IMG/VR virus record: IMGVR_UViG_3300042561_000324
Span: 1 to 50,870 of that record
Reading direction: 5' to 3' (one strand)
DNA length: 50,870 nucleotides
Source of the DNA: a virus
Made by a program: the position numbers and the translations under genes. Under the pieces are notes generated by a model. It saw only the letters and a list, made by a program, of their open reading frames with translations. It was not told the origin of the DNA and made no database searches. Position 1 is the first letter of the stretch; each line of letters opens with the position of its first letter. This document shows positions 3,979 through 42,711 of the stretch, in pieces.

Positions 3979-5832
3979 TTACCAATCTCCATTATCATCT
4001 GATGAGTAGGCATCGTCATCAGAGAATGATTCAACTGGCTTTTCCTCCCTAGACCAGAATCGGTTAGTAGGAACAACTTTATCGTTTCCGATAAATACTA
4101 GTCCATACCTCCGCGCCATCTCTAGGCAGTAAAGATAGCTATCCGCCAAGTCGGGCGAGAACCCAGTTCTTCCCTTAAAGTCATCTTTAGTCTCTACAGA
4201 AATCTTCTTGGACTTAATCGTGTATCGGCGGAGGCAAAGTTCCCGCGCCAGATCGGAGCTAGTATCTACACCATAGAGAACTCGACTCTTGAATCCATGA
4301 TAGGCTGAATACCAATATTCAGATACCAACCTATCATAAACATCCTTACACGGGCGTTTATCAACTTCGGCGGCGATACGCTCGGTAGGTTTACCCATAG
4401 AAGAGATGAGTGCGATTGCGGAGCCTGTAGCGTCAAATCGTAGCCACTCACGAATAATAGCCTGCCCGACTCGTCCACCATCACCGGAAACGTCCATTCC
4501 GAAGTTGGATGGCTTTACTCCAGCCGACCTACAATAGTTAACAACTTCAGTAGCCAATTGGATTTCAAACTCGGCAGCGGCATTGGCTGACAACTGAATG
4601 ACCTTCTGACTTTCCAGATACATGACACGATTGCGAGTCCCGCGAACGTATCCTAGCTTGGCGATGGTAAGAACGCATCGGTCTCCCCCTACAGTAAACG
4701 CGGTATCGAACCCAGCCACCTTGGTGAATCCTTCAGAATCCCATAATGGTTCTTCGTTGGTATTAGCATTACGGATCAGATCGGCGGTGAGAATTGTTTG
4801 AGCGAATCCAGACTTCGGCCACCAGCCAATAGCGTTACGAACATAGTCAACAGCATTCTCGTCGCCATAACACAGCTTGAGCATATCCTTCTGCTTCTCA
4901 CGATCCATTAAGAATGGAAATGGAGATGGTTCATCAGGTGGCGCGGCGAAGTTAGGAGAGCGCATACCATTGTAAAACAAACACACTCCAGTTCCTGTCT
5001 CCCATTTATCCATTTCTGGATTAACAGAATCAAAGTTAGAACAATCTTTAGGCATAGCCCAACGAGTGTGCGGGTTGTCACCAGCGGACGGGTTTCCAAT
5101 TCCAATGAATGTCTTATCATTGTTTGATGCTAGGTTTGTTCTTGCGGTAATCGCGCCCAACTCCATTTCTGGCAATTCATCAAGAGCAAGACGAACCCTG
5201 TCATTCTTACGACCACGGGTTGTATCAATAGCCTTTTGGCCTTCATTACCGGATTGGAATGCGAGAGCTTTTATCGCATTACGATAATCTTTATCCTCAT
5301 CGTTGGATGCGCCACCCCAAACAATCATGTGGCGATAGTCGATTAGTTTACCTATTTGAACGCGAGCGCACTTCCAGAGTTTAGAGATGATACCCCAGAT
5401 ACGATCTTCAGAAGCACCGAGAGTTGTAGTAGCAACCCAAGAAGAAGTGCAGTGCGGGGCGGCACACCAATCAAGATAAATCCAAAGACCAACAGGAAAA
5501 GATTTACCCATCGAAGCCGCACCAGCTAAACAAATATCTGTATTGTTGCAAAGCTCCTCAAGAGTTCTTAACAATTGGGTATTTGTATAGCCACGATTGT
5601 AGATAGAAACTTCAGTCGGCCATTGGAGTTTTACGGCATTGATGAAATGTTCGTGTGGCGATAGTAATTTAAATTCAGAAAGACTTATGTTATGCCTAGT
5701 GCAATAACTTCTGCCATATTGCCCTCTAGTGATAGCGTAGCAAAATAACTCAACGCCAAGATCGTCGAGGTTCTCTGGAAACTGCATCCCGTATCTACGA
5801 ATTCCTTTGTTTGAAGAAAAAGCTCTTGACAT
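3979..5832 (-). CDS. terL: Terminase large subunit
   Basis: A 617-aa DNA-packaging motor. The ATPase domain has Walker A GAASMGKS (residues 104-111) and Walker B LALDELPE near 215-222. The nuclease domain shows the usual acidic residues in GFDTAF, GMDVSGDGG and SPDLADS. The protein would pump DNA through the portal and cut the concatemer. It is on the opposite strand from the portal, unusual for a neighbour, and converges end to end with the 3751-3978 gene. It contains one palindrome (4079-4094). The start has no Shine-Dalgarno but an A/T-rich leader. Confidence 0.93.
   Translation of the reverse strand: MSRAFSSNKGIRRYGMQFPENLDDLGVELFCYAITRGQYGRSYCTRHNISLSEFKLLSPHEHFINAVKLQWPTEVSIYNRGYTNTQLLRTLEELCNNTDICLAGAASMGKSFPVGLWIYLDWCAAPHCTSSWVATTTLGASEDRIWGIISKLWKCARVQIGKLIDYRHMIVWGGASNDEDKDYRNAIKALAFQSGNEGQKAIDTTRGRKNDRVRLALDELPEMELGAITARTNLASNNDKTFIGIGNPSAGDNPHTRWAMPKDCSNFDSVNPEMDKWETGTGVCLFYNGMRSPNFAAPPDEPSPFPFLMDREKQKDMLKLCYGDENAVDYVRNAIGWWPKSGFAQTILTADLIRNANTNEEPLWDSEGFTKVAGFDTAFTVGGDRCVLTIAKLGYVRGTRNRVMYLESQKVIQLSANAAAEFEIQLATEVVNYCRSAGVKPSNFGMDVSGDGGRVGQAIIREWLRFDATGSAIALISSMGKPTERIAAEVDKRPCKDVYDRLVSEYWYSAYHGFKSRVLYGVDTSSDLARELCLRRYTIKSKKISVETKDDFKGRTGFSPDLADSYLYCLEMARRYGLVFIGNDKVVPTNRFWSREEKPVESFSDDDAYSSDDNGDW
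4079..4094. promoter_or_regulatory. Palindrome 3 (TTTC centre), inside terL
   Basis: TTATCGTTTCCGATAA, identical to palindrome 1, near the 3' end of the terminase gene. No promoter-like sequence is evident beside it. Confidence 0.55.
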
Positions 5833-6258: not shown

Positions 6259-8790
6259 ATGCTTTCCATCGGCCAAGACAACTTCTCACTTGCCACTCTA
6301 GACCAAGATGGCAAACCACCAGAAACACGAATCTCCAACGCTAATCATGCTTGGAACATCGCAAATCACTTGAGGTTGGCAAACATCGGGCGCGAGAACA
6401 AACGCTTGCGTATCTATAAGGCTTACAAAATGTTTCCGCCTACAGGATATAGCAAGCTCGCGGAGAAGCGTCTCCCTTGGCAATCTGATGTAAACTACGG
6501 ACAGCTTGGATTCATCGTAGATAACCAGAAGTCCAGTTACTACGATGTAATTACGGAACGTCAGGCTTGTTGCACGATCAAGACAAAGTATGGAAACGAA
6601 AAAGAACGACTCGTTAACTCCGAAAACATTTCCATCGCATTTGACCAAGCAATCCGCGAATGGCCCGGATACCTCTACAATACAGAGCAAGACCTTGAGG
6701 AAATGTTGCTGTATGGAAAGGGAATTGGAATGTGGGATTCACCTATGGGATGGATGCCAGAACACGTCTTCCTATCCGACCTTCTCTTTCCAGACGACAT
6801 TAGGATCGACTTCTGCAACCTTGAGGAGTTTGTTCGCCGTGTCCGTCTGACACCATACGAACTCTACAAGAAGATCGAGAATCGTGCGGCGGCAGAAGCA
6901 ATGGGATGGAATGTAGATGCGGCTATTGATGCGATCCGTTTCCACCGCGCATTCAGCAACCATCGCAAGACCCGCGAAGATTTCTTCCGCACGATCAGCG
7001 AGGCAGGATTCAACTGGTCATTGTCGGTTAACCAGAAGATTGACCTATACGAAGTATACTGGAGGGAGTTCGACGGCAAGATCAGCAAGGCGATTATCCT
7101 CCAAGACTACCAACCAATCTCTGACTACATCAACTCCAACATCAAAGGAGCAGGCAAGATCAGCGAAGATGACATCAGAACCCAGCACGGGTTTATGATG
7201 CTCAAGGTAGGACTCTTCAACTCATGGGATGAGATCATGTATATGCTCACCGATTCGGTTGGCAGCGGACTCTTCCAAGACATCAAGAGCCAAGCGGAGT
7301 CGGCGTTCGTAGCTTGCCGTCAGTATGACTTCACGATGAACTCGCTGGTTGATGCCGTGCGCCTCAACTCCATGTTGATGATCGAAGGCCAAGGGCCAGA
7401 CGCAACGAAGATGTTGAAGCAGATGGAATGGTTGCCAATCAGCGTCATGCCAGACGGAGCGAAGTTCATTCAGAACCGCTTCCAACTCCCAGTAGGAGAA
7501 AGCATGAGCTTCATGCAATTCTTCATGGGAGATATGTATAGGGGAATGGGGCAGTATCGCATCAATGCCCCTACCTCTGGAGGAAAGCAACGCACGAAAG
7601 GCGAGGCAGAGTTAGATGCGGCTGAATCAGCCAAACTCTCTGGAACGCAAATCCGCCGATTCAACGAGTGCCAGACGCTTTACTTTAAGCAACTCTACAA
7701 ACGTTTCGTTAACTCCAAGTCGAGCGATGATGGATACGAATTCGTGAAAAAGTTCTACGAAGTTCTTGAGGAACTTGGAACTCCGAAGGAAGCCGCGCAA
7801 TGGAAGAACATCACCAGCATCCGCTCCAACCTCATCAATGGTGCAGGTAGCCCATCGTTCAAACTGATTACCGCAGAGAAGTTGCTGAACATCACAGCAA
7901 TCACTCCAGCAAACGAAGGCCAAGAGAACGCAGTTAAAGACGCAATCGCGGCACTATCTGGACGAGACAACGTAGCTCGCTACCGGAATACCAAGGTAAG
8001 CAAGATCGACGATACCGCTCGCATCATTGGATTTGAAAATGCTGGAATGACTGATGCGTTCGTAAACCCAGCCAACTTCCCTGTGCTACCGACCGATCCG
8101 CACATTGAACACGCTCAAGGTCACTTCCAAGACATGGTGATGCAGTTGCAGATGAATATGCAGTCCGTGCAGGCTGGTCAGCCAAACATTGATGATCTTG
8201 CATTGGCGATGCGTTCCATCAAGTTCAAGGGTGGTCACATCATGGCGCACGTCGAGTATATCAGCAAAGACCAATCGAAGCAGGACTTCTTAAAGCAATT
8301 CATGCAAGGAATGAACGAGGCGCAGAAAATGGCCGACGATCTTCAGTCTGTATACGTGGAGATGGCTCAAGCCGAAGCTCAAAAGCAAGGTCAATCGAAC
8401 TCCGAGGAAGACATCAAACTGCAATACCTCGCTGCCAAGTCTGGTATCGAAATCGACACCAAGAAGAAACTCGCCGACATTGCGATTGGCAAGGCATCTA
8501 TCAGTCACGCCCAGCGCACCGAGCAACGCAGAGAACAGGGAATCACTCAACTCGCTCTCCAGAAAGCCAAGGCTCGCGCCGAGATTCAGAAGGCAAAAGG
8601 CAAGATGGCGGCAGAGAAGCCAATGCCAGCAGAGAAGCCAATGGAGGAAGAGGTAGAGATGGAAGAAGAAGAGACCGAAGAGCCAGAGGAGATGGAAACC
8701 GAAGAGGTAGAGACCGAAGAGGTCGAGACTCCAGAAGGAACTGAAGAAGTTGAGATGGAAACCACACAGACACCAATGCAACCACAATGA
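6259..8790 (+). CDS. Portal protein
   Basis: An 843-aa protein at the portal position (after the terminase, before scaffold and capsid), with the size and composition of large podoviral portals. The front carries EYLYNTEQDLEEMLLYGKG-like and Trp/Tyr-rich segments, the middle has the PTSGGKQRTKGEAELDAAESAKLS stretch typical of portal stem and crown regions (near 435-455), and a long helical coiled tail follows (about 690-790). The last 50 residues are almost pure Glu/Met/Thr repeats. The portal is the dodecameric gate through which DNA enters and leaves the head. No Shine-Dalgarno is present. Confidence 0.85.
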   Translation: MLSIGQDNFSLATLDQDGKPPETRISNANHAWNIANHLRLANIGRENKRLRIYKAYKMFPPTGYSKLAEKRLPWQSDVNYGQLGFIVDNQKSSYYDVITERQACCTIKTKYGNEKERLVNSENISIAFDQAIREWPGYLYNTEQDLEEMLLYGKGIGMWDSPMGWMPEHVFLSDLLFPDDIRIDFCNLEEFVRRVRLTPYELYKKIENRAAAEAMGWNVDAAIDAIRFHRAFSNHRKTREDFFRTISEAGFNWSLSVNQKIDLYEVYWREFDGKISKAIILQDYQPISDYINSNIKGAGKISEDDIRTQHGFMMLKVGLFNSWDEIMYMLTDSVGSGLFQDIKSQAESAFVACRQYDFTMNSLVDAVRLNSMLMIEGQGPDATKMLKQMEWLPISVMPDGAKFIQNRFQLPVGESMSFMQFFMGDMYRGMGQYRINAPTSGGKQRTKGEAELDAAESAKLSGTQIRRFNECQTLYFKQLYKRFVNSKSSDDGYEFVKKFYEVLEELGTPKEAAQWKNITSIRSNLINGAGSPSFKLITAEKLLNITAITPANEGQENAVKDAIAALSGRDNVARYRNTKVSKIDDTARIIGFENAGMTDAFVNPANFPVLPTDPHIEHAQGHFQDMVMQLQMNMQSVQAGQPNIDDLALAMRSIKFKGGHIMAHVEYISKDQSKQDFLKQFMQGMNEAQKMADDLQSVYVEMAQAEAQKQGQSNSEEDIKLQYLAAKSGIEIDTKKKLADIAIGKASISHAQRTEQRREQGITQLALQKAKARAEIQKAKGKMAAEKPMPAEKPMEEEVEMEEEETEEPEEMETEEVETEEVETPEGTEEVEMETTQTPMQPQ
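8641..8760 (+). repeat. Glu-rich codon repeats in the portal tail
   Basis: Imperfect short repeats of GAAGAGGTAGAGACC type encode a highly acidic C-terminal tail of the portal protein. Repeat slippage should make its length vary between relatives. A negatively charged tail may act as a DNA mimic or scaffold contact. Confidence 0.6.
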
Positions 8791-40230: not shown

Positions 40231-40509
40231 ATGTCAGAACCAACACAACAAAACGAAACCTCGAAAGCAGTTCTTGAAGCGTTCACGTTCATCAAGTCAG
40301 CCGACGAGACACTAAACGAACGAGTCCATGCAATGGCAAGCCTGTTGCACACGGCGGCAATGATGGTAATCAAATCAGAATCCCGCAAGGGTGAAGGGTT
40401 TGAGGCTATCCGCTACTTGGAAATGGCGTTCCTATACTACACCCAAGCACAATTCCGCAAACGCTTCGACAAGCAGGAGGAAGAGGAAGCTCCACGAATC
40501 ATCAGCTAA
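40231..40509 (+). CDS. Small hypothetical protein
   Basis: A 92-aa helical protein, last gene of the rightward early operon, with an LNERVHAMASLLHTAAMMV helix and a charged tail. Small all-helical proteins with HxxA/FxxA patterns like this often accompany recombination genes, but no family is identifiable. Confidence 0.55.
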   Translation: MSEPTQQNETSKAVLEAFTFIKSADETLNERVHAMASLLHTAAMMVIKSESRKGEGFEAIRYLEMAFLYYTQAQFRKRFDKQEEEEAPRIIS

Positions 40510-40510
40510 A

Positions 40511-40526
40511 GTATCGTAACCGATAA
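40511..40526. promoter_or_regulatory. Palindrome 15 (TAAC centre), upstream of the RNA promoter
   Basis: GTATCGTAACCGATAA, 7 bp upstream of the TTGACA of the RNA promoter. Its centre is about 50 bp upstream of the predicted start, as at the leftward early promoter. Confidence 0.7.
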
Positions 40527-40533
40527 AAAGTAT

Positions 40534-40561
40534 TTGACATTAGCTTTCCATTCGCTAGAGT
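40534..40561 (+). promoter_or_regulatory. Promoter of the candidate structured RNA
   Basis: TTGACA (40534-40539), 16-nt spacer, TAGAGT (40556-40561). This copies the architecture of the 36963 promoter: same box, same spacer, similar -10. There is no open reading frame on the same strand behind it before the terminator. Confidence 0.7.
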
Positions 40562-40567
40562 GCTTGT

Positions 40568-41062
40568 ATCCAATCAAGTTCTAGCCGACTTGGGAGACTA
40601 ATTTTCAAACTGAAAAATGGGTCTGTTGTAGTCGGCTAGCTACGACAGGCCCAATTTCTTTGCCACCATTGGATCGTGTAATCGACGGGGATGCGTGAAG
40701 GACGCACCGAGACATAGGTCTGCAAATTTCGACGAAGGGATGGAGATAGAACGGCAATGACAATCCTGCTATCTTAATAGGCCAGCAATGGCGACTTCCG
40801 ATCAGGCTACGATAACAGCCAAGTGTAGGCAAAGGACAGCCATCGCACGAGGATCGGTTAAGCGAAAGGTGACTACGCTCAGACGAAACGTATGATTCAT
40901 TCGGCAAGTTTTCCCAAATTTTCTTGGGAGACTTGTCGCTCTGGTTCGGTCTCACCGAAACGCAGGAGATTCATTGATCTCCGAGTAGAATATATTCTGA
41001 ATAGTTTCAGATTGGTTTAGATAACAAAAAAACCAGAAAGGAATTTCTTCCAATCTGGTTTT
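40568..41062 (+). ncRNA. Candidate large structured RNA with pseudoknot (about 490 nt)
   Basis: A non-coding transcription unit with its own promoter and terminator. CTAGCCGACT (40581-40590) pairs perfectly with AGTCGGCTAG (40630-40639), which lies in the loop of GGGTCTGT/ACAGGCCC (40619-40626 with 40645-40652): a pseudoknot. Other stems: 40602-40616, 40692-40706, 40744-40774, GCCA-GCAA-TGGC (40781-40792), CCGATC/GATCGG (40798-40857), a two-part stem 40905-40935, TTCGGT/ACCGAA (40945-40959), GGAGAT/ATCTCC (40965-40982) and 40997-41010. CTTGGGAGACT occurs near both ends. It is not recognisable as tmRNA, RNase P, 6S or a tRNA array. The ends are predicted. Confidence 0.65.
41029..41062. terminator. 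Bidirectional terminator between the RNA and the helicase gene
   Basis: AAAACCAGA pairs with TCTGGTTTT (9 bp), with inner GGAA/TTCC, and A-runs or T-runs on both sides. It can end the rightward RNA and the leftward helicase operon, which stops at 41083. Confidence 0.8.
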
Positions 41063-41082
41063 AAGTTTAAGTGAAACTGGTT

Positions 41083-42711
41083 TTAAATCAGATTCTCTTC
41101 TTCATCTTTTGGAGCTAGTGAGATAGTCCCGTCAATTTCTCCATCGTTCAGCGTGTCCATACGCTTTAGCTTCTCGTCTAGCTTTTCGCAGATGGATTCC
41201 TCGATAGGAACACCCGCCGCGTAGATGAGATACTGGATCGACTTGGACTTACCGCCTGCCCTGTGGACTCGACCCAATACTTGTTTGAGATCGAACACGC
41301 TAGGCGAAGGCATGATTAGCGCAACCCGTGAGTGATTGCCATTGAGATCGTGGAGGTTCAAACCTTCCCGCGATGCCTGTATAATCCCAATAATGACTCT
41401 CGACTTATCATTCTGGAACGAATCAATCTTGCCTCTACGCTCAATCTCGTTCTGTCCTCCGTAGATGGCGCAATCGGTCTTGAGTTCTTCCATGAGCCAT
41501 TCACGGGTCTCGGTGTAGTTCACCGCGATGAAGACAGAGTTACCTTCTTCGATTAGATCACGCGCCATTGCCGCCACCGCTGGAGCCTTGAGCATTTCGA
41601 TTCTCTGTCTTGCTCTAGTCTGTTCTGCTAGGACATTTGCCGAGAAATTTTCCTGCATCCGCAACTCTTCGATTCGGTTGCAAAGGTCTTCATACTCATT
41701 GGCAATCTTCTTTGCGTTATCCATGTCGAAGGCTTTCGCCTTGATGAGCGTTTCGGGGAACGCATCGCCAAGGTCAGAGTGCCTCAACCGATTACCCTTT
41801 TCGGGGTAGATTCGGCTATGGAGTTTCTTCAATACTGAATTGCCTCCTGTGAACTGCATTCCGAAGCGGGTCTTCCTGCACCCGTTCTGTGATAGGAATC
41901 GGAAGTAGTCCTTCCCACCTTGGTGAAGGCCGAGGAACTGCCCGATTGCCCACAACTTTGTAGGATCGTCGGCAATGGTAGCAGAGAGAGCAATCGCAGG
42001 GATGTTCTGGATAACCGAATCACGGACTAGGAAAGCGTTCTGGGTAGCTTCACCTTTGCCTCTGTGAACTTCATCGAACACTAGCAGAACATCTTCGGGC
42101 AGCATGAAGCGGAAGGACTTTTTATTATCATCCGTCCAGCGTCCCATCTGACTCTTGCCAGTTTTGGCCCATTCCCATCCGCAGATTTCAAACACCTCGA
42201 CGCCCATCATTTTCGCGGCGCGATGCCAGTCTGTTGTGATAGGTTTGGGGCAGACTACCGCAACCCGCTTGCCAAGCTCACGGGCGATGCCGAGGGCGCA
42301 GAAGGTTTTTCCTACACCTGTGGAATGTCCGAGCAAGACTCGATTGTATTTATTCATCGAAGCAACACCCATCTGGACGGAGGTTTGCTGGTATTCAAAC
42401 AAACCTTCGGGGTGGAGAAGCGGAATCAGATCAAGCTCGGCGACCGCTTCGACTTGGTTATCGGAAACGATTATCTGCTTGAACTTGAGGTCTTCCGTTG
42501 ACCACCAAGACAAACCCCACTCTTCGCGGAACTTGCCTAGGGTGATCCCGGCTTTAGACATCTGCTCTTTGAAAAGTTCTTTGTCCTCGCGGTAGACCTT
42601 CCAAAACTGGTCGGTGATCGGAGCCTTCTTTAGAAGCCGAACTCCGCGTTTAGTGTTTAGCTGAATGGGATGCGACCATTCAACTGTTGCCATCAAATCG
42701 TGGATGTTCAT
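41083..42711 (-). CDS. SNF2/DEAD-like helicase
   Basis: A 542-aa superfamily-2 helicase/translocase. Motif I is GHSTGVGKT (128-136), motif II FDEVH (212-216), motif III around ALSATI, and the C-terminal lobe carries QVLGRVHRAG (motif VI, QxxGRxxR). The N-terminal 85 residues are not conserved in type. The substrate is unknown: DNA remodelling, replication-fork handling or counter-defence. It is the last gene of a leftward operon that ends at the shared terminator. Confidence 0.88.
   Translation of the reverse strand: MNIHDLMATVEWSHPIQLNTKRGVRLLKKAPITDQFWKVYREDKELFKEQMSKAGITLGKFREEWGLSWWSTEDLKFKQIIVSDNQVEAVAELDLIPLLHPEGLFEYQQTSVQMGVASMNKYNRVLLGHSTGVGKTFCALGIARELGKRVAVVCPKPITTDWHRAAKMMGVEVFEICGWEWAKTGKSQMGRWTDDNKKSFRFMLPEDVLLVFDEVHRGKGEATQNAFLVRDSVIQNIPAIALSATIADDPTKLWAIGQFLGLHQGGKDYFRFLSQNGCRKTRFGMQFTGGNSVLKKLHSRIYPEKGNRLRHSDLGDAFPETLIKAKAFDMDNAKKIANEYEDLCNRIEELRMQENFSANVLAEQTRARQRIEMLKAPAVAAMARDLIEEGNSVFIAVNYTETREWLMEELKTDCAIYGGQNEIERRGKIDSFQNDKSRVIIGIIQASREGLNLHDLNGNHSRVALIMPSPSVFDLKQVLGRVHRAGGKSKSIQYLIYAAGVPIEESICEKLDEKLKRMDTLNDGEIDGTISLAPKDEEENLI
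42458..42473. promoter_or_regulatory. Near-match palindrome (CGATT half), inside the helicase gene
   Basis: TTATCGGAAACGATTA, one mismatch in the right half of the core. It lies in helicase coding sequence and is probably weaker than exact sites. Confidence 0.35.

Follow-up and report, generated by a model that had tools for sequence, protein, structure and literature searches.

We have analysed 50.9 kb of DNA from an IMG/VR virus record (hereafter, the window) and have found between two of its genes what is, according to the base changes in its relatives, almost certainly a real structured RNA. The RNA should be ~495 nt long and run on the plus strand from 40568 to 41062, with the start set by the spacing from the promoter and the end by the terminator. 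It is probably the first member of a new family of phage RNAs that is confined to one lineage, a group of uncultivated bacterial viruses. In addition, judged from the related contigs, the RNA is an exchangeable allele, i.e., an optional cassette between two fixed genes.

The gap that holds the RNA (40510–41082, 573 bp) lies between a conserved plus-strand gene of 92 aa upstream (40231–40509) and the convergent gene of a superfamily-2 helicase (41083–42711, minus strand), which form the left and right boundaries of the swap site, respectively. A preliminary description of the window had placed a plus-strand structured RNA in this gap, and this has been borne out by the conservation and the compensatory changes in relatives. 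The window phage itself seems to represent a poorly known phage lineage. Among isolated phages, the relatives of its helicase are all remote, and its terminase has no match among 50,697 phage records.

Transcription signals and conserved fold

A predicted sigma-70-type promoter, TTGACA-16-TAGAGT, is located at 40534–40561 (+) with 10 of 12 matches, exactly where the RNA had been proposed to have its own promoter. In the homologues, the -35 box, the -10 box, and the 16-base spacing are kept and the spacer letters vary; the -10 box is TAGAGT in the window and in the relatives L006 and L045. Given this promoter, the expected transcription start is 40568, the first base of helix P1. At the other end, a predicted and conserved terminator hairpin (41031–41060) has an A-run before it and a T-run after it and should be usable in both directions, in agreement with the bidirectional terminator of the preliminary description. 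Around the start lies a palindrome, CTTG-TATCCAAT-CAAG (40563–40578, +), which shows one covarying pair and is lost in L034. It may be either a DNA operator or a 5' hairpin, the former being possible because the left arm falls downstream of the -10 box but before the likely +1. Further upstream, a TATCGTAACCGATA element (40512–40525, +), one of a genome-wide set, precedes the promoter in the window phage and some relatives; since it is missing in others, we have not counted it as part of the RNA.

For the covariation analysis, we have aligned 16 full-length sequences including the window (identity at least 64%), the relatives being found via the neighbouring helicase gene. RNAalifold gives 113 pairs on this alignment, of which 26 show compensatory changes. 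To the body helices from RNAalifold, we then added P1, the pseudoknot, and hairpin H2, which gives a structure of 109 pairs. In this structure, 98.0% of cells are paired, compared with 92.4% in shuffled alignments and 28–42% in slid versions, where the comparison with the slid versions is biased as the structure is partly derived from the same sequences. The count of pairs changed on both sides is free of this bias: 31 of the 109 pairs are compensatory, against 10.9 in shuffles and 3–7 when slid. On each measure, 0 of 500 shuffles reached the 109-pair structure. That is, the compensatory changes, whose absence would have refuted the RNA by the standard of the preliminary description, exceed both controls. 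Regarding the strand, G-U combinations far exceed A-C combinations among the paired cells (184 vs 9), which indicates that the plus strand is the selected one. Folding energy alone does not give the strand, since the plus strand (-166 kcal/mol, z = -5.1) and the minus strand (z = -5.2) are similar.

The 5' domain is closed by P1, in which AUCCAAU (40568–40574, +) pairs with AUUGGAU (40668–40674, +). All sequences are paired at its 7 positions (100%), with two compensatory pairs, and the helix was absent from the preliminary description. Inside the domain, the strand CUAGCCGACU (40581–40590, +) pairs with AGUCGGCUAG (40630–40639, +) in the loop of hairpin H2, and both strands covary. These are the ten pairs CTAGCCGACT/AGTCGGCTAG of the pseudoknot precisely as first claimed. 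The pseudoknot occurs in 11 distinct sequence versions with the pairing kept throughout, and 0 of 20,000 permutations of strands and loops matched as well as the true combinations. The stem that bears the loop is present too, though longer than the eight pairs first given: H2 (40619–40652, +) has 11–12 pairs (40619–40630 with 40641–40652) and is followed by a U-rich, terminator-like run. When the 5' domain is taken by itself (19 sequences), 97.0% of cells are paired and 11 pairs are compensated.

The body is branched and likewise shows changes that keep the pairing. It begins with a helix of CCAG/CUGG type (40682–40732, +; helices 5–7), whose 4 pairs all covary in relatives and which encloses a conserved hairpin at 40686–40709. 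Helices 8–9 follow with 7 + 4 pairs (40743–40775, +). Helix 10 is the GGCCA-GCAA-UGGC hairpin (40780–40793, +); the GCCA-GCAA-TGGC element noticed earlier is thus real, and in relatives a UUCG-type loop sits on a compensated, covarying stem. Downstream are a branched domain (40795–40862, +; helices 11–13) with compensatory changes at 6 pairs, and a 15-pair stem with one bulge (40902–40938, +; helix 14) with such changes at 4 pairs, which corresponds to the two-part long stem formerly drawn at 40905–40935. A short conserved hairpin (40943–40956, +; helix 15) comes last before the terminator.

Homologues and comparison with known large RNAs

A helicase search of viral contigs yielded 35 loci. 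BLAST of the gap against these loci and five DNA-pattern scans with different segments of the RNA converge on the same small set of carriers. There are 17 carriers of the window-type body including the window, one of them truncated, and whenever a contig extends into the flank, the neighbouring genes are the same. L057 is the most distant carrier, with a helicase of only 60% identity. The homologue evidence thus covers one lineage with a moderate number of sequences, and many of the contigs are incomplete. Scanning with part of the alternative body (see below) recovered already known carriers only. Two further loci, L042 and L050, were rejected as chance matches to the 5' pattern, the rest of the RNA being absent in both, and the degenerate viral pattern TTTTGCCANCATTGNAT was too loose to be informative. 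In a genome collection, the pattern scan gave 66 matches, none of which was backed by the family profile (best E 0.03, 9.5 bits), and among annotated phages and plasmids the sole matches were above E = 1.

Rfam searches with the window RNA, the L057 homologue, the alternative body, and the leader of the HNH-like ORF in L002 returned chance-level matches only, at the gathering threshold as well as at relaxed ones (E up to 5–10). This agrees with the earlier remark that no specific family could be recognised and, together with the compensatory changes, supports a large structured non-coding RNA with a pseudoknot. Candidates already set aside in the preliminary description have fared no better: tmRNA and tRNA are rejected by ARAGORN and Rfam, and RNase P RNA and 6S RNA by the Rfam covariance models. 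The models of group I and II introns and of HEARO do not match either. The alignment is ready for an RNA family that is absent from Rfam.

Few large structured phage RNAs are known. The best known of them, ROOL and GOLLD, have elaborate folds, and their function is still open (PMC12286853). ROOL is a large structured RNA with pseudoknots (659 nt in one example), found in phages and prophages and with no known protein partner; GOLLD, likewise large and found in phages, has a conserved region beside a less conserved one (PMC12286853). Like ROOL, the window RNA is large, structured, phage-encoded, and equipped with a pseudoknot, but the architecture is different, there is no covariance match, and ROOL is often near tRNA genes whereas the window RNA is not (0 tRNA genes in 50.9 kb). 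Like GOLLD, the family combines a conserved part with a variable one, sharing one domain and differing in the rest. Many GOLLD RNAs, on the other hand, exceed 800 nt, have the conserved region at the 3' side, and are often near tRNAs, while the window family shares its 5' domain. OLE has a similar length (577 nt in one example) and is also a stand-alone structured RNA, but again lacks a covariance match. The Rfam models of GOLLD, ROOL, and OLE do not match the window RNA even at E up to 5–10. The comparison with ROOL and GOLLD made at the outset thus stands as an analogy (size, phage origin, no known partner) and fails as membership, neither model matching at E up to 10 and tRNA neighbours being absent. 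We take the RNA for a new family of a known kind, the large phage RNAs, with ROOL and GOLLD as the nearest in kind. Its unusual trait is one 5' domain common to two bodies at a swap site.

Allelic states of the intergenic site

Four states have been observed between the helicase gene and the 92-aa gene. In 14 loci, the site holds the terminator segment only (70–113 bp). Other loci carry the window-type RNA between the same two genes. In a third state, the first 165 bases are shared and then run into another body, also structured, in a gap of ~665 bases overall (L005, L031, L038, and a truncated L055). In the fourth, ORFs with the residue pattern of an HNH nuclease are present (L002, L032, L022, L026, and L030; in L002 at 7693–8313, minus strand). 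The pattern reads HIDHIMPVS...NLRPLWAHEN, and the HNH assignment is read from these residues, since a Pfam search did not recognise the L002 ORF. In L002 and L032, a promoter-like sequence and an apparently structured leader lie in front of the ORF. The alternative cassettes, including those of L002 and L032, end in the same terminator as the RNA cassette. As regards presence and absence, the RNA cassette follows the same pattern as free-standing phage homing endonuclease cassettes, with HNH-like ORFs at the same intergenic site, but differs from them in having no ORF and a conserved RNA fold.

The second structured body (L005 7700–8242, minus strand; also in L031, L038, and L055) is unrelated in sequence to the window body and has the same 5' pseudoknot domain and site. 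It folds well (z = -5.0), and the paired-site changes between its two versions all preserve pairing.

The states alternate among close relatives. L021 and L032 have nearly identical helicases, yet the former carries the RNA and the latter the HNH-like ORF; within each of the close pairs L013/L014 and L006/L007, the RNA faces an empty site. On the helicase tree, 13 state changes are needed for 13 RNA carriers, at least 11 of them forced by well-supported branches, and no copy of the RNA was found elsewhere in the empty-site contigs. Exchange also reaches within the RNA. The window is 96–98% identical to L006 and L045 in the 5' domain but only 75% in the body, and L044 combines a 5' domain of the L018 type with a body of the L006 type. 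This difference in kinship indicates that the domains recombine. By gene co-occurrence in 27 contigs, several of them incomplete, no protein among ~588 clusters tracks the RNA once the number of clusters is allowed for; the top two clusters are short ORFs that, by position, apparently lie inside the RNA itself. At this site, near-identical phages bear the RNA, lack it, or join its 5' domain to another body, a natural series in which function is directly testable.

Possible roles of the RNA

From the comparisons, the molecule is a plus-strand RNA with a P1-closed 5' domain, an H-type pseudoknot, and a branched body. We propose a stand-alone accessory RNA with its own transcription that would act in trans in conflict with hosts or other phages, a mechanism that, taken as a whole, we consider evenly poised between right and wrong. 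Host RNA polymerase would transcribe it from its own sigma-70 promoter, and with the 5' end sequestered in P1 and the 3' end in the terminator hairpin, the RNA would be stable and abundant. Its partners, if any, may be host or core phage proteins, and its accessory role may be anti-defence, host take-over, or superinfection exclusion. If it paid off in certain hosts or against certain rivals only, the frequent gain, loss, and replacement would be explained, though the RNA could also be exchanged as a hitch-hiker at a hotspot of recombination or homing. It is a tentative and rather doubtful idea that the RNAs constitute a modular conflict family with a shared 5' pseudoknot domain and interchangeable bodies, in which phages swap RNA, HNH-like, and empty alleles at one locus since the RNA decides their conflicts with host defences or rival phages.

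Several other explanations deserve weighing. The site may be a homing hotspot with HNH insertions, so that the RNA would be a passenger or relic of mobile endonucleases, i.e., mobile and partly selfish, or ribozyme-like after loss of the HNH gene, and would spread when the region is copied. Intron-less homing is known in phages, and both the five HNH-like ORFs at the same site and the terminator shared with the L002 and L032 cassettes fit this account. We nevertheless regard it as unlikely: no intron, HEARO, or other mobile RNA matches (E up to 5–10, or gathering score), the RNA lacks exons and has a predicted promoter and terminator of its own, a relic would hardly be under such strong selection for its fold, and the HNH assignment comes from a residue pattern without a Pfam match. 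Antisense or decoy action on phage or host RNA, in the manner of phage immunity RNAs, is improbable. Such RNAs are much shorter and less structured, and the variable pseudoknot strands pair with each other and are not free. It would suit specificity types that the alleles are swappable and almost randomly distributed in close relatives, and phages do carry c4 antisense RNAs (PMC2864571).

A role in cis is slightly more improbable. Here the 5' domain would be a conditional terminator or riboswitch-like switch, in which H2 with the U-run competes with P1 and the pseudoknot to decide whether transcription continues. Indeed, H2 and the U-run behind it score as an intrinsic terminator, the conserved hairpin could with such a run cause an early transcription stop, and the same 5' domain is joined to two different bodies. 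But the window itself has an interrupted U-run, and that of L034 and L057 is weaker; downstream there is only the RNA body and its terminator before a convergent gene, and conservation with compensatory changes extends to the body. Finally, it is hardly credible that the region holds no functional RNA, only chance structure in a spacer or in a minus-strand gene. Although a minus-strand ORF of 116 aa spans part of the RNA and both strands fold better than shuffles, this ORF is interrupted by stops or frame shifts in all relatives and no plus-strand ORF is kept across the relatives, so that a coding region is rejected on either strand. Covariation, strand asymmetry, and promoter conservation also refute this explanation.

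Some minor observations concern the neighbourhood and the rest of the genome. In L024, extra genes are inserted before the RNA (between 8207 and 9386), one of which encodes a 115-aa protein (FTFSAAHYLKIPDHPCSVMHGHNYRV...) that, by eye, we take to resemble the 6-pyruvoyl-tetrahydropterin synthase / QueD type. In the window, PHROG matches are weak or absent for the terminase (3979–5832) and, across most structural genes, for many virion proteins. The element TATCGNNNNCGATA has 17 copies there, at 925, 2584, 4080, 6239, 10455, 13056, 19417, 20703, 23790, 24227, 26768, 31889, 33110, 36918, 40512, 47231, and 47802. Allowing up to 2 mismatches, its consensus gives 24 strand matches in the window against 0.17 expected, and each of 26 related contigs contains 11–30 copies. 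Many copies lie 1–9 bases before gene starts (peak at 7) and others within genes. The four central bases are oriented with the gene, as GAAA occurs 86 times and TTTC 3 times inside genes; this strong orientation suggests either a hairpin in the mRNA whose loop is GNRA-like or a set of operators or stoperators with a fixed orientation.
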